A stretch of 50,919 nucleotides of DNA, taken from assembly GCA_937969445.1 (NCBI GenBank), contig CALBVZ010000031.1:1-50919 (forward strand). Reading direction: 5' to 3'. The notes beneath the pieces are model-generated. The model did no database searches. It saw nothing but the letters and a program-made list of their open reading frames with translations, and had not been told where the DNA came from. Positions 18,367-26,308 of this stretch are shown here, piece by piece; position 1 is the first letter of the stretch, and each line of letters begins with the position of its first letter. This stretch comes from an uncultured Octadecabacter sp. (GTDB taxonomy: Bacteria; Pseudomonadota; Alphaproteobacteria; Rhodobacterales; Rhodobacteraceae). The translations under genes were made by a program, and so were the position numbers.

Positions 18367-19319
18367 ATGCGCAATGTTCCTTGCAATAGTATCGGTGCTG
18401 AATTGGACAATTGGGATGATCTTAGGGTCTTTTTGGCCGTGGCTCGTGCAGGAAGCCTGAATGGTGCTGCCCCCTCGCTAAAGATGGATCCGGCGACTTT
18501 GTCGCGACGGATTCACCGACTTGAAAAACGGCTGGGCGCGACGCTTTTTGTGAAGTCATCACATGGGTATTTGCTAACCAATGATGGCAAGCGAGTTCAG
18601 GATGAAGTCGAAGTCGCTGAGGGGCCGCTTATCCGCGCCATTGAACCTGGTCAGTCGGACCCAAAAGGGCTGTCGGGGCAAATCAAAATTGGGGCACCAG
18701 ATGGTATGGCAAATTTTGTTTTGCCACAGGTGACACAAGAGATAATGGCAGAAAACCCAGCGCTTGAAATCCAAATTGTTGCGTTGCCTCGTATCTTCAA
18801 CCTGTCCAAGCGCGAGGCCGATATCGCGGTTTCCGTTGCGAGACCCGCAGCAGGTCGGCTGTCTGTTAAAAAATTTCCGACTACGAATAACACTTGGCAG
18901 CAACGCAAAGTTACCTTGACGGAGCAGGGCCACTTCGCGATGTCGCTGATCTCAAAAACCATCGATTAATCGGTTACATTCCCGACCTTGTTTTCTCAGC
19001 GGAACTCGATTTTTCTGCATTGCTAAACGGCCAATCCCCAACCCTGATTTCGAATTCAACGTCGGTTCAACTAAACTGGGTGAGTGCAGGTGCTGGCCTA
19101 GCCGTTGCCCACGATTCTGCGATCCCTCATTTTCCAACGGTTCAAAGGATTCTAACGCGTGAATTCTCACTTATGCGAACGTTTTGGTTAATCCGGCACG
19201 AGGACGATAAAAGGGTAGGGCGGCACGCGCAATTTGCCCGAACCCTTAAGAGAAAGCTGAGCGACGAAATCTCGCGGCTTGAGAAGCAGGTCGTAGAAAA
19301 CTGCCAGCCGATGCGCTAA
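18367..19319 (+). pseudogene. LysR-family regulator, disrupted by a frameshift and a nonsense codon
   Basis: Two track ORFs are parts of one gene. The 5' part encodes the HTH (DNWDDLRVFLAVARAGSLNGAAPSLKMDPATLSRRIHRLEKRLG) and half of the effector domain, up to SVKK at about 18873. The rest continues one base out of register as ISDYE-stop-HLAATQSYLDGAGPLRDVADLKNHRLIGYIP to the end. One A missing from an A-run near 18868-18873 explains the shift. The TAA at 18888-18890, where a Leu codon would be expected, is a second lesion. Intact, the protein would be about 315 aa. It is divergent from mmsA, the usual place for its regulator. GGAAGAG precedes the start. Confidence 0.82.
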
Positions 19320-21785: not shown

Positions 21786-21814
21786 TTGACTTTCGATCTG
21801 GATTGTCGTTTATT
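21786..21814 (+). promoter_or_regulatory. Possible promoter giving a leaderless transcript of the GbsR-type gene
   Basis: TTGACT at 21786-21791 and TTTATT at 21809-21814 are separated by 17 bases. A start six to eight bases further on would coincide with the ATG at 21821. No ribosome-binding sequence is visible before that ATG, which fits leaderless translation. The -10 matches the consensus at only four of six positions. Confidence 0.35.
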
Positions 21815-21831
21815 TCTGTTATGACAGAAAT
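21812..21831. promoter_or_regulatory. Operator of the GbsR-type regulator, copy 1 (overlaps its own start codon)
   Basis: ATTTCTGT-TATG-ACAGAAAT, a perfect eight-base inverted repeat around a four-base spacer. The ATG of the regulator at 21821 falls within the spacer. The same arms recur at 22408-22427, upstream of the next gene, so this is very likely an autoregulatory site. Confidence 0.7.
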
Positions 21832-22381
21832 TGCAGATATTAATGATTCTTCCGCCAAGGCACAGTTTGTCTTGTATTGGGGTGACATGGGCAGCCAATG
21901 GGGCGTTAACCGTTCCGTGGCGCAGATACATGCGCTGTTGTTTCTCAGTGTGAACCCATTGAACGCCGAAGAGATCGCAGACCAACTTGCGATTGCGCGT
22001 TCAAATGTTTCAAACTCTCTCAAAGAACTTGTCGGGTGGAAACTGATCCGCCGTGTTCCTGTTCCCAATGACCGCCGCGAACATTTTGTCGCTGAGGTGG
22101 ATGTGTGGGAAATGGCGATGCGCATCGCGCAGGGCCGTAAGGAACGCGAGATTGATCCAGCGATGTCAGCCATTGATAATTGTGTCCAACAGGCTGTGAA
22201 TGAACCAGGCCTTGATCCAATCGTTTTGGGCCGGATGCATGAGATGCAAGATTTTCTGAAGACTGCCGATCGCTGGTCTTCGCAAATGTTAAACGTACCT
22301 AAATCTAAGCTGAATATGCTGATGAAGATGGGCGATAAGGTTTTTTCTCTGCTCAAGTTGACAGGGAAAAAGACTGAATAA
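21821..22381 (+). CDS. GbsR/MarR-type transcriptional regulator
   Basis: 186 aa from ATG 21821 (MTEIADINDSSAKAQFVLYWGDMGSQWGVNRSVAQIHALLFLS). The GDMGSQWGVNRSVAQIHALL block is diagnostic of the GbsR group (COG1510). A winged HTH follows at about residues 50-95 (LNAEEIADQLAIARSNVSNSLKELVGWKLIRRV). A helical C-terminal dimerisation region completes it. The track's six-residue longer version starts upstream of the operator. It is followed by the DUF4166 gene, and identical inverted repeats precede both, so it probably controls itself and that operon. The inducing signal is unknown. Confidence 0.85.
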   Translation: MTEIADINDSSAKAQFVLYWGDMGSQWGVNRSVAQIHALLFLSVNPLNAEEIADQLAIARSNVSNSLKELVGWKLIRRVPVPNDRREHFVAEVDVWEMAMRIAQGRKEREIDPAMSAIDNCVQQAVNEPGLDPIVLGRMHEMQDFLKTADRWSSQMLNVPKSKLNMLMKMGDKVFSLLKLTGKKTE

Positions 22382-22407
22382 ATTACGACCACTTTTTTTG
22401 CCCATGC

Positions 22408-22427
22408 ATTTCTGTCCATACAGAAAT
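22408..22427. promoter_or_regulatory. Operator of the GbsR-type regulator, copy 2
   Basis: ATTTCTGT-CCAT-ACAGAAAT: arms identical to those at 21812-21831, with a different spacer of the same length. It lies 28 bases upstream of the DUF4166 start, in the 74-bp gap after the regulator. Confidence 0.7.
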
Positions 22428-22455
22428 TAAAGACCAAACAGAATAAGGTGGCACA

Positions 22456-23097
22456 ATGAAAGCCAGTAATTTCTCAATTCATACCAATCCTGATGATCGG
22501 TTTGCCAAACTGGCGGGACGCAAGGCGTGGGACAGTTTGCGCCCTGCTGTGCGCAAGCGATTTGGCAAACGTTTGAATGGTGGCGTTAGCGTCACCTACC
22601 AAGGAAAAGTTGTTTCGATGCAGATGAATCTAGCTGGACGCATTCTTGCACACGCAGCCCGCATGATCGGCGCACCTTTGCCTTATGATTTGTCTTCTGT
22701 AGATCAACCCGCTGTGGTGACCGTAACCGAAGACATCGCCGGAAGCGGCCAGTTTTGGATCAGGCAATACGGGCGAAAAGCAGGTTTCCCGCAAGTTGTT
22801 CACAGCTCAAAGCGATTTGCAGGGTCGACCGGCCTTGAGGAATACATCGGCTACGGCATCGGCATGGCGTTAAACATTAGCGCCGAAGGGCAGGACCTTT
22901 TGTTCAAAAGTGATCACTATTTTCTGCAAGTCCTTGGGCGACGCATACGTCTTCCGCGGGCCCTAAGCCCAGGCGCATTGGTTATCGGTCACCATGACAT
23001 CGGGAACGGACAGTTCCGGTTTTCACTAGACCTGCGCCACCGCCTATTTGGGCAAATGATTTCCCAAGACGCAATATTTCAAGATGGAAAAGAGTAA
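22456..23097 (+). CDS. DUF4166 domain protein
   Basis: 213 aa, soluble, no signal peptide. It shows the DUF4166 pattern: an N-terminal part with RFGKRLNGGVSVTYQGKVVSMQMNLAGRILAHAARMIGAPLP, then TVTEDIAGSGQFWIRQYGRKAGFPQVVHSSKRF and a beta-rich C-terminus ending FRFSLDLRHRLFGQMISQDAIFQDGKE. The biochemical function of DUF4166 is not known. It is often fused or adjacent to NAD-dependent epimerase-like proteins, as here, where the next gene starts three bases later. AATAAGGTGG precedes the ATG. Confidence 0.82.
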   Translation: MKASNFSIHTNPDDRFAKLAGRKAWDSLRPAVRKRFGKRLNGGVSVTYQGKVVSMQMNLAGRILAHAARMIGAPLPYDLSSVDQPAVVTVTEDIAGSGQFWIRQYGRKAGFPQVVHSSKRFAGSTGLEEYIGYGIGMALNISAEGQDLLFKSDHYFLQVLGRRIRLPRALSPGALVIGHHDIGNGQFRFSLDLRHRLFGQMISQDAIFQDGKE

Positions 23098-23100
23098 GCA

Positions 23101-24594
23101 ATGGACAACCCAATTCTCTGGAGCCTGATCTCGGTACAAGTTTTCATGGGCGCATTTGATACGCTTGTGCATCATGAAGGCACCGAGCGTCTGGCATGGC
23201 GCGCCTCACAAAAGCACGAGCTGCGCCTGCACGGTGTGCGCAACTTTTTCTATGCATTAATATTCATGACCTTTGCGTGGTTAGAACCCCACGGTGTATT
23301 CACCACCATTCTGGCCAGTATCTTAGCAATTGAGGTTCTGATTACGCTTTGGGATTTTGTCGAAGAAGACCTGACCCGCAAACTGCCCGCAACCGAACGG
23401 ATTAACCATACATTGCTGGCGCTGAACTACGGCGCGATCCTTGCGCTCGCTGCACCCTACCTTTGGGAGTGGGCATTCCTACCAAGCGGGTTAGTCCCCG
23501 TCAGTTACGGTTGGTGGAGCATCATGGCGACCGTATCTGCGATTGGCGTCGGGGTTTTTAGCGCGCGCGATCTATTGGCTGCGGCACGTAGTGACCGGCT
23601 TGACCGGGGTGATCCCGCCGCTTTGGTTGAAGCACTAAAACCATGCCAACACATCCTGATCACAGGCGGTACCGGCTTCATCGGTTCGCGTCTGGTCGAG
23701 GCCCTTGTTGCGGCCCGCCATCACGTCACTGTCCTCACTCGCGACGTGCAAAAGGTTGATCAGCTTAACCATCCAGTGCGTGTCATCGCCAACTTCGATT
23801 TGATCGAAAATGACGAGCAATTTGATGCCATCGTGAACCTTGCTGGCGATCCCGTGGCAAGCGGTATCTGGACGGCAAAGAAACGCGCAAGAATTATCAG
23901 GTCGCGTGTTGAAATGACCCGTGCAGTGCATGCGTTGATCGCGCGGCTCAATCATAAGCCAGAGTGTTTGGTAAATGGTTCCGCAGTTGGATGGTATGGC
24001 CTACAAAATGATGGCGACGACGCAAAGCTGACCGAGGAAGCCCTAGCGAAACCCGCCTTCGTCCATGATGTTTGTGAAGCTTGGGAGCAGGAAACTCTCC
24101 CTATATCAGCGCAAGGTGTGCGGGTCGTGATCCTGCGGATCGGGCTAGTTCTGGGTGTCGACGGCGGAATGCTTGCCAAGTTACTGACTCCGTTCGAATT
24201 TGGCGGTGGAGGGATTATGGGGAATGGCAGGCAATGGATGCCGTGGATCGAACATGACGACATGATCCGAGTAATCGCTTTTGCAATCGCGACTCAAAGT
24301 ATCGCGGGCCCCGTGAACGCTGTTGCACCAAAGCCAGAACGGAACGAAGCGTTCTCCCGGGGTTTGGCCGCCGCTTTACACCGCCCACTGTGGCTGCGGT
24401 TCCCTCATTGGCTGCTTTCGGGTGCGCTTGGTGACTTGGGGCGCGAAACCATGTTGGGTGGACAGCGCGTGGTACCGATGCGGCTAAGTGAAGTTGGTTT
24501 TGTCTTTCGCTACGACACTCTCGCACCAATGTTACGTAAGATTACTGGGTCGAAAGACACAGGTGGTACTAGATCTAAGTGGCGAAACATCTGA
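23101..24594 (+). CDS. Membrane domain fused to a TIGR01777-type (SDR39U1) NAD(P)-dependent epimerase
   Basis: 497 aa. Residues 1 to about 165 hold several hydrophobic segments (LWSLISVQVFMGAFDTLVHHEG, FFYALIFMTFAWLEP, TTILASILAIEVLITLWDF, ALNYGAILALAAPYLWEW, WSIMATVSAIGVGVF). The rest is an atypical SDR: dinucleotide motif ILITGGTGFIGSRLVEAL at about 182-199, then IVNLAGDPVASGIWTAKKRARIIRSRVEMTRAV, VNGSAVGWYG, WMPWIEHDDMIRVI and VVPMRLSEVGFVFRY, all typical of TIGR01777. It lacks an obvious YxxxK pair. It is cotranscribed with DUF4166. Function is unknown; the membrane part would hold the enzyme at the inner membrane. Confidence 0.83.
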   Translation: MDNPILWSLISVQVFMGAFDTLVHHEGTERLAWRASQKHELRLHGVRNFFYALIFMTFAWLEPHGVFTTILASILAIEVLITLWDFVEEDLTRKLPATERINHTLLALNYGAILALAAPYLWEWAFLPSGLVPVSYGWWSIMATVSAIGVGVFSARDLLAAARSDRLDRGDPAALVEALKPCQHILITGGTGFIGSRLVEALVAARHHVTVLTRDVQKVDQLNHPVRVIANFDLIENDEQFDAIVNLAGDPVASGIWTAKKRARIIRSRVEMTRAVHALIARLNHKPECLVNGSAVGWYGLQNDGDDAKLTEEALAKPAFVHDVCEAWEQETLPISAQGVRVVILRIGLVLGVDGGMLAKLLTPFEFGGGGIMGNGRQWMPWIEHDDMIRVIAFAIATQSIAGPVNAVAPKPERNEAFSRGLAAALHRPLWLRFPHWLLSGALGDLGRETMLGGQRVVPMRLSEVGFVFRYDTLAPMLRKITGSKDTGGTRSKWRNI

Positions 24595-24727: not shown

Positions 24728-26308
24728 ATGAACGCCCGTCCGAACATCGTTGTAATTGTCGCAGATCACGTTGCCTTTGCGGGACACTATGGTCAGGAGC
24801 GTTACGACTATCGTTGGCCATCGCTTGAGCGTATCGCGAAACGCGGGGCTTGGTTTGATCGGGCCTATGCTATCACTCCAGTTTGCACACCATCGCGCGC
24901 CAGTTTCCTAACTGGAAAGCGTCCAGATAAGCATGGGTTGCGTTGGAATTCAGAGTACCCAATCCCGCACAACCGCAAAGAATTCCGCGATGATGAAGAA
25001 CTATACGCATCGCATTTGGCGAAAGCCGGGTATGATAACTACTACTTTGGCAAGTGGCACTGTGGCGTCAATAAGACGGCCGAAGACTATGGATTAAAGG
25101 GCTGGAGCCTGCCTGAGTACGGAAATCTCTATGCCTGCGATGCTTATAAAAAATACCTCAAGAAGATTGGCGAAGATCAACCGCGCTGTCGTATCGAACA
25201 TCACTTGTTGCGTCCTGAATTGGACAACAAAGAAGTCTTGATGGACCCATCAGAGCCTTGGGATTACATGGATGGTGCTGGCGTTCTTTTGGGGTCGTCT
25301 GAAGTCAATGAGCAGTTCTTTGTTGCGAACCTAGCCTGTGATCAGCTGACGCAGTTGCGCGATACCGATCAGCCTTTTTCGATGGTTGTCAGTATGTGGG
25401 GGCCACATCACCCCTATTATCCAAGCCAGGAATTCGCTGACCTAATCAACCCGTCAGATATTCCGACCTACCCGAGCTTTGACGAAGACTTATCAAGCAA
25501 ACCGTGGCGATACCGAGTGCAACGCGATTTGCGCTGCCAACATCGCGCATTTGAGCGTTGGCCAGATTGGGAGACGTGGCAAAAGGTTCTTGCGCGTTGC
25601 TATGCTGCTGGCCTGCAAACGGATGCTGCCATTGGCCGAATTGCCGATAAACTTGACGCGCTGGGTTTGGCGGACAACACCTTGTTCGTTGTGACCGCGG
25701 ACCATGGGGACGGGATCGCTGCACATGGTGCCGGTTGGGACAAATACTCCACGTTCTCGGAAGAGGTCGGGCGCATTCCATTGGTCGTGAATTACCCTGC
25801 TAAGATCGTACCTGATCAGCGGGTAACAGCACCTGTAAGTCTGTTAGACGTTACCGCGACTATTCTCGACGCGGCAGAGGTCGAAGACCTATCGCATCCG
25901 CTGCCGATTGATGGCGAAAGTCTTGTTGGTATTGCAGATGGAAGTTGTGAACGCACAGCGCTGATCTGCGATCACTTCGGGCATTCCGGAGACATCAGCT
26001 TTCAGAAAATCCTGTATCGAGATGGATGGAAGTATGTGTCTGTTTGGGGGGACGACGACGAACTATATTGTCTCGACAACGATCCCTTTGAATTGAATAA
26101 TCGGCTTAACGATCCAGACACATTTGATCGCCAGAATATCATGCGTAGACAGATTGCAGATCATATAGTTGACCGGCGCGAAGTTAGACGCGCATGGCAG
26201 CCTGCTGAGTTTTGGGAAGACGGAATCGTTTTCTCTTCACCAGAATGGCCGCGCGAAGAGGTATTGCAGCTCTATAAGTTGCGCACACAACTTGCTGATA
26301 AATTGTAA
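24728..26308 (+). CDS. Type I sulfatase / phosphonate monoester hydrolase family protein
   Basis: 526 aa, no signal peptide, so probably cytoplasmic. N-terminal PNIVVIVADHVAFAGHYG provides the first metal-binding Asp. The maturation motif C-T-P-S-R (PVCTPSRASFLTGKRPDKHG) would give the formylglycine nucleophile. Later TADHGDGIAAHGAGWDK supplies the Asp-His metal pair. D-H after the first Asp, in place of the usual D-D, resembles the D-Q seen in the choline-sulfatase and phosphonate monoester hydrolase branch. No formylglycine-generating enzyme gene is visible nearby. Substrate is unknown; a sulfated or phosphorylated ester from marine organic matter is plausible. Confidence 0.85.
   Translation: MNARPNIVVIVADHVAFAGHYGQERYDYRWPSLERIAKRGAWFDRAYAITPVCTPSRASFLTGKRPDKHGLRWNSEYPIPHNRKEFRDDEELYASHLAKAGYDNYYFGKWHCGVNKTAEDYGLKGWSLPEYGNLYACDAYKKYLKKIGEDQPRCRIEHHLLRPELDNKEVLMDPSEPWDYMDGAGVLLGSSEVNEQFFVANLACDQLTQLRDTDQPFSMVVSMWGPHHPYYPSQEFADLINPSDIPTYPSFDEDLSSKPWRYRVQRDLRCQHRAFERWPDWETWQKVLARCYAAGLQTDAAIGRIADKLDALGLADNTLFVVTADHGDGIAAHGAGWDKYSTFSEEVGRIPLVVNYPAKIVPDQRVTAPVSLLDVTATILDAAEVEDLSHPLPIDGESLVGIADGSCERTALICDHFGHSGDISFQKILYRDGWKYVSVWGDDDELYCLDNDPFELNNRLNDPDTFDRQNIMRRQIADHIVDRREVRRAWQPAEFWEDGIVFSSPEWPREEVLQLYKLRTQLADKL

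Follow-up and report, generated by a model that had tools for sequence, protein, structure and literature searches.

Repressors that are made from leaderless mRNAs and control their own synthesis include lambda CI and TetR. The AcuR-acuI-dddL operon of Rhodobacter, a member of the same bacterial group as the locus described here, likewise begins with its autorepressor gene; 5'RACE has shown the mRNA to be leaderless from the AUG, there is no Shine-Dalgarno site and the operator overlaps the -10 element (PMC3017554). AcuR differs in being a TetR-family protein, in having one promoter for the whole operon and no twin site, and in its operator, TAATAGAC-n6-GTCTATTA, which overlaps the promoter and is described as lying 5' of the start codon (PMC3017554). 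Leaderless translation of AcuR is low, about 7.5% of that of acuI, and is abolished when the ATG is changed to TTG or CTG (PMC3017554). CvkR of CRISPR-associated transposons, a MerR-type repressor with a 15-nt motif (PMC9938897), and CrtR of Corynebacterium, a MarR autorepressor with a TTAA motif upstream of crtE (PMC5401885), are also made from leaderless mRNAs; in neither case is the operator said to have a start codon at its centre.

Closer in protein family are GbsR and OpcR of Bacillus subtilis, which belong to the same MJ223-like MarR subfamily as the regulator studied here, the GbsR operator being, as here, an inverted repeat rich in A/T whose arms stand four bases apart (PMC7396694, PMC6207618). 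Operator sequence and targets differ. GbsR and OpcR serve the choline response or osmoprotection, and GbsR forms a roadblock placed beyond a leadered start (PMC7396694, PMC6207618), whereas OpcR excludes polymerase (PMC7396694). CydE of Alishewanella, a distant characterised relative, is a GbsR-type repressor of cytochrome bd that was footprinted on TATTTCAGAAATTTCTGAAAGTTCA, of the form TTTC-N10-GAAA (PMC6096048). Like the regulator proposed here it represses its own operon, and its footprinted site TTTCAGAAATTTCTGAAA shares the TTTC-N10-GAAA outline with TTTCTGTNNNNACAGAAA at our locus. Unlike it, CydE controls cydAB, is relieved by sulfate and binds sites described in the promoter region; its inner bases are CAG-CTG as against CTGT-ACAG, its second footprint does not resemble our palindrome, and the likeness is one of published sites (PMC6096048). 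The family members and the leaderless-autorepressor mode are of kinds already known. What is new is that a predicted operator always has the start codon at its centre, an arrangement kept from order to order and found on different genes in sister families; no matching description of a start codon inside an operator spacer was found in the literature searched, a search that most subscription papers lay outside.

The window, a stretch of 50,919 nucleotides from an uncultured Octadecabacter sp., carries the following features at this locus.

21786-21791, forward strand: -35 element TTGACT
21804-21839, no strand: extended operator 1, TGTC-N4-ATTTCTGT-TATG-ACAGAAAT-N4-GATA, its outer arms mirror-complementary in orthologs
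21809-21814, forward strand: -10 element TTTATT (-12 to -7), 17 bp from the -35 element and overlapping the left operator arm
21812-21831, no strand: predicted core operator 1, over the -10 element, the predicted transcription start and the start codon
21821-21823, forward strand: ATG start codon, whose A is also the predicted +1 of the leaderless mRNA
21821-22381, forward strand: GbsR/MJ223-type MarR regulator, 186 aa (PF12802, E=1.2e-12)
22393-22400, forward strand: T-tract TTTTTTTG, candidate -35-like or shape element upstream of operator 2
22408-22427, no strand: predicted core operator 2 (the twin), ATTTCTGT-CCAT-ACAGAAAT
22445-22448, forward strand: AAGG, Shine-Dalgarno-like site of the DUF4166 gene by sequence
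22456-23097, forward strand: DUF4166 protein, 213 aa (PF13761, E=8.3e-35)
23101-24594, forward strand: 497 aa protein with a TIGR01777 epimerase-type oxidoreductase domain (309.9 bits, cut-off 207)

The N-terminal half of the regulator is a MarR-type winged helix-turn-helix (PF12802, 48.3 bits, cut-off 27; PF01047, 30 bits, cut-off 24.6). Its closest solved relative is MJ223 (1KU9), both in a profile search (E=5.8e-17) and in a Foldseek search with the AlphaFold model (rank 1, E=1.7e-9), and MJ223 is also the modelling template of GbsR, so that the GbsR-type assignment of the initial annotation is supported. Its best NCBIfam relative is CudC (NF047500, GbsR-type choline regulators), at 43.8 bits against a cut-off of 218; by sequence, the regulator is related to CudC and is not a member of it. 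GbsR holds choline or glycine betaine in an aromatic cage of six Phe near the linker (PMC6207618). Residues 92-115 of the regulator contain, by eye and judging from the regulator alone, a single aromatic, the invariant W96; the choline cage seems to be absent, which suggests that the ligand differs from that of GbsR.

The initial annotation had reported identical arms with a four-base spacer at 21812 and 22408, and ATTTCTGT-N4-ACAGAAAT is indeed an exact palindrome at both places, with spacers TATG and CCAT. At up to three mismatches the window holds these two matches against 0.17 expected, no shuffle reached two, and no third copy was found within it. The genome-wide search for TTTCTGT-N4-ACAGAAA that had been proposed as a check returned the same two exact sites and no others in the 2.36 Mb assembly (74% complete). 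At up to three mismatches the genome contains 93 sites compared with 128 for a reversed control, no excess over chance.

One genome per species was scanned, giving 58 usable orthologs (53-90% identity), and plasmids gave three more; with the window added and one near copy dropped, 61 loci were aligned on the start codon. They span at least four alphaproteobacterial orders and belong to Rhodobacterales, Hyphomicrobiales (Roseibium, Methylobacterium, Xanthobacteraceae), Sphingomonadales (Novosphingobium), Maricaulales and Parvularcula; the carriers, about 60, are marine and soil bacteria. Conservation is close to zero upstream of -36, rises at TTGAC (-35 to -31) and rises again from -17. The register of the palindrome relative to the gene is identical in all 61 loci, and the ATG that had been placed in the operator spacer (21821-21823) occupies the same position in 59 of them, ATA standing there in the other two.

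The conserved operator extends beyond its core. Outer arms TRTC (-17 to -14) and GAYA (+15 to +18) share the palindrome centre, and their paired positions are complementary in 48-80% of loci. Since these arms are mirrored about the centre, operator 1 is probably 36 bp long and reaches codon 7. Codons 2-4, which lie within it, are frozen. Codon 2 is ACA in 61/61 loci (only 17% of Thr codons in the rest of the gene) and codon 3 is GAA in 61/61 (53% elsewhere); codon 4, where it encodes Ile, is either ATT or ATA, and ATC, which makes up 60% elsewhere in the gene, never occurs there. Residues 1-6, moreover, are predicted to be disordered (AlphaFold model, pLDDT 88). Hence the operator best explains the conserved MTEI N terminus.

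The promoter of the regulator is fixed in the same frame. TTG lies at exactly -35 to -33 in 60/61 loci, and the -35 hexamer, counted from the A of the ATG, is TTGACT or TTGACA in 48/61. The -10 consensus of the orthologs is GATATT/TATATT, 47/61 combining an A at -11 with a T at -7, a combination that the window itself does not have. Hexamers at -35 and -12, 17 bp apart, are the textbook arrangement for transcription that begins exactly on the A of AUG, and the spacing in the window places +1 on that base. From this sigma-70-type promoter (TTGAC at -35, xATATT-like -10) a leaderless mRNA is predicted for all loci except a few. The window's own -10 element is weak, matching at 4/6 and lacking A at position 2, and the promoter is missing from the list of a generic promoter scan, so the prediction comes mainly from the 61-locus footprint. 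None of the 61 loci has a Shine-Dalgarno-like 4-mer at -20 to -4, and in 27 an in-frame upstream stop, as near as -12, is reached before any ATG, GTG or TTG. Together with the fixed promoter positions, these results support the leaderless mRNA that had been predicted; they also speak against the longer protein with its own ribosome site that the initial annotation had named as its refutation. The predicted operator overlaps the regulator's own promoter (-9 to +11, or -17 to +18 with the outer arms); the regulator resembles AcuR, a TetR-family protein, in mode only.

In the two ATA orthologs (L037:5001 and L080:1716) the change makes the palindrome perfect, and L080 has no ATG, GTG or TTG near the conserved N terminus. 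Because the change of ATG to TTG or CTG abolishes leaderless translation of AcuR, by analogy little repressor may be made in these two.

We consider it likely that the regulator is an autorepressor with a local regulon, which by its predicted binding excludes polymerase from its own leaderless promoter and from the twin promoter. Binding and repression are inferred with the CydE footprint as backing by analogy, and the leaderless 5' end from the promoter positions. Counting against this reading are the poor -10 element of the window, the twin promoter with no convincing -35, the two ATA orthologs and the members that have no twin site ahead of DUF4166. At its own gene the regulator would bind the 36-bp palindrome from -17 to +18 and, since the -10 element, the point where transcription starts and the start codon all fall inside it, would shut out RNA polymerase. 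Release triggered by a ligand would then yield a leaderless mRNA from the AUG, keeping the level of repressor low. At operator 2 the regulator would cover a separate promoter, whose mRNA would have a leader and a Shine-Dalgarno site and could therefore give more of the target enzyme. The low leaderless translation of AcuR (PMC3017554) suggests, by analogy, that the use of the arrangement is little repressor and more enzyme.

The second site had been proposed as a twin before the target genes, and it recurs: a palindrome with up to two mismatches lies after the regulator stop codon and before DUF4166 in 46/61 loci, about 20-150 bp from the stop and in most loci about 25-30. It was not found before DUF4166 in Yoonia/Loktanella and some other members. 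The left arm of the twin is often TTTCTCT, TATAC runs across the spacer and the right outer arm is GAYA. A T-tract or A/T-tract ending in TTTG is strictly placed 17-24 bases left of the operator centre, with TTT at -20 to -18 in 43-46 of the 46 loci; in these loci it is neither a good -35 element nor a terminator with a hairpin, and there is no TTGAC or convincing -35 of any kind. The twin operator overlaps a promoter distinct from that of the regulator, and, because a Shine-Dalgarno site precedes the ATG, the target mRNA is predicted to be leadered. A third half-site-like ACAGNA recurs downstream of the twin (+21 to +26; near 22438-22443 in the window).

The features that set the twin promoter apart from the first (a T-tract from -24 to -17, a spacer with TATAC and the lack of TTGAC) would suit a regulator that binds the twin site and activates the DUF4166 promoter, or that acts there as a roadblock, as B. 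subtilis GbsR does, its operator lying downstream of where transcription starts, while its relative OpcR excludes polymerase (PMC7396694). We regard this as unlikely, since the sole -10-like sequence at the twin lies under the operator itself and the characterised GbsR-type proteins are repressors (PMC6207618, PMC6096048).

The palindrome might instead work as RNA, a hairpin in a leadered transcript presenting the AUG in its loop and controlling translation, not transcription. Indeed, the fold computed for 21800-21845 has -10 kcal/mol (z -2.6) and holds the AUG in a four-base loop, and in many sister-family targets described below GGAG precedes an in-loop ATG by 8-9 nt, so that a transcribed hairpin is possible there. 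A leaderless mRNA, however, holds only half the palindrome and so has almost no fold (-1.6 kcal/mol), the twin has the same arms and no start codon in its loop, and 26/46 twin sites carry an uncompensated G to C change at -3 that breaks the RNA stem and leaves the site intact; control through RNA is improbable on these grounds. Least credible of all is translation from a longer leadered frame with the spacer ATG incidental: a TTG lies in frame at -18 (21803 in the window) and a candidate start occurs there in 15/61 loci, but protein similarity begins at the spacer ATG and the upstream stops and missing Shine-Dalgarno sites count against it.

The predicted autorepressor has a narrow reach. TTTCTSTN4ACAGAAA sites in 27 carrier genomes are local to the locus except for four distal copies, and a reversed-control motif gave no sites in the same genomes. 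In Anderseniella (L126) the distal site precedes a DCC1-like gene, itself followed by a DUF4166 fusion, and the DCC1-like ATG lies in the spacer (MTEN). In Maricaulis, Yoonia and Loktanella the distal sites precede small hydrophobic proteins, by eye probably membrane proteins.

A sister clade of regulators, with the bacterial family in common, shares 39-44% identity and stands apart in the tree with 98-99% support. Its operator is that of the main family and the T-tract is seen again, while the regulator's own start codon is usually found 13-31 bases further downstream. Among the 20 loci with a recognisable twin, 13 have the ATG of the target in the spacer (MTEI/MTEM/MTET/MTEV), and GGAG often stands just ahead of the palindrome. 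Since it is the target's ATG and not the regulator's that occupies the spacer, the start codon within the operator, judged from sequence, arose on different genes. Such targets include L136:1723-2156, L138:1499-1917 and others in L007, L014, L020 and further loci; their MTE- N termini belong to small hydrophobic proteins, in L020 apparently to a DCC1-like protein. A link of the sister regulators to CydDC, considered after a Rhizobium match, was rejected because larger loci show a small membrane protein instead. A third clade (L028, L031, L035 and Rhizobium L131, before cydDC) has TTTCAG-N6-CTGAAA-like sites, a form that the characterised CydE site shares (PMC6096048). The cyd context occurs only in this distant relative L131; no cytochrome bd operon accompanies the window locus, where DUF4166 and TIGR01777 follow the regulator.

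A wider reading, which we hold tentatively and think rather unlikely, makes one palindrome serve as operator, transcription start and start codon in a lock of two layers. An mRNA begun on the A of the AUG would carry half the palindrome and have its start codon free, while a read-through transcript from upstream would close the AUG into the loop of a hairpin, have no ribosome site and so stay silent. The operator would also have written the first residues of unrelated proteins, MTEI, MTEN and MTEM, in the regulator, a DCC1-like thiol oxidoreductase and small membrane proteins.

DUF4166 is the gene after the regulator in 54/59 loci and TIGR01777 is next in 36/59; other loci have a DCC1-like protein and a saccharopine-dehydrogenase/DUF4166 fusion downstream instead. 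The 497 aa protein has an N-terminal extension of ~180 aa that by eye is probably membrane-embedded. The structure model of DUF4166 (pLDDT 91) is mostly beta, and its best PDB matches are weak, nitrobindin and lipocalin barrels at TM about 0.4 with none below E 0.001; for the ligand they give no more than a lead, towards a hydrophobic molecule or heme. We found no mention of DUF4166 in the literature searched. The protein has an invariant His, H179.

Protein-coding, translation-start and DNA-binding constraints fall on the same 20-36 bases in a clean and widely conserved case and, being fixed on the same bases, they open the cost and use of leaderless autoregulation to single-base-change tests. 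Genes for DUF4166, TIGR01777 and DCC1-like proteins, which have no known role, gain a predicted regulator and operator, and with these a route to the inducing signal.

The cassette is patchily distributed. Close matches (at least 70%) occur within the genus in the genome of the window and in a single one of the 18 others, and within the family in 5/397 genomes, the window's own counted; this pattern suggests that the cassette was gained and lost, or transferred. The gene after the operon (24728-26308) encodes a sulfatase related to choline-sulfatase; it was rejected as a regulon member, as the window holds no third site and no homolog was recorded after the cassette in relatives. Upstream, a LysR-type regulator (18367-19319) appears to be spread over two overlapping frames (18367-18969 and 18894-19319), which suggests a frameshift.
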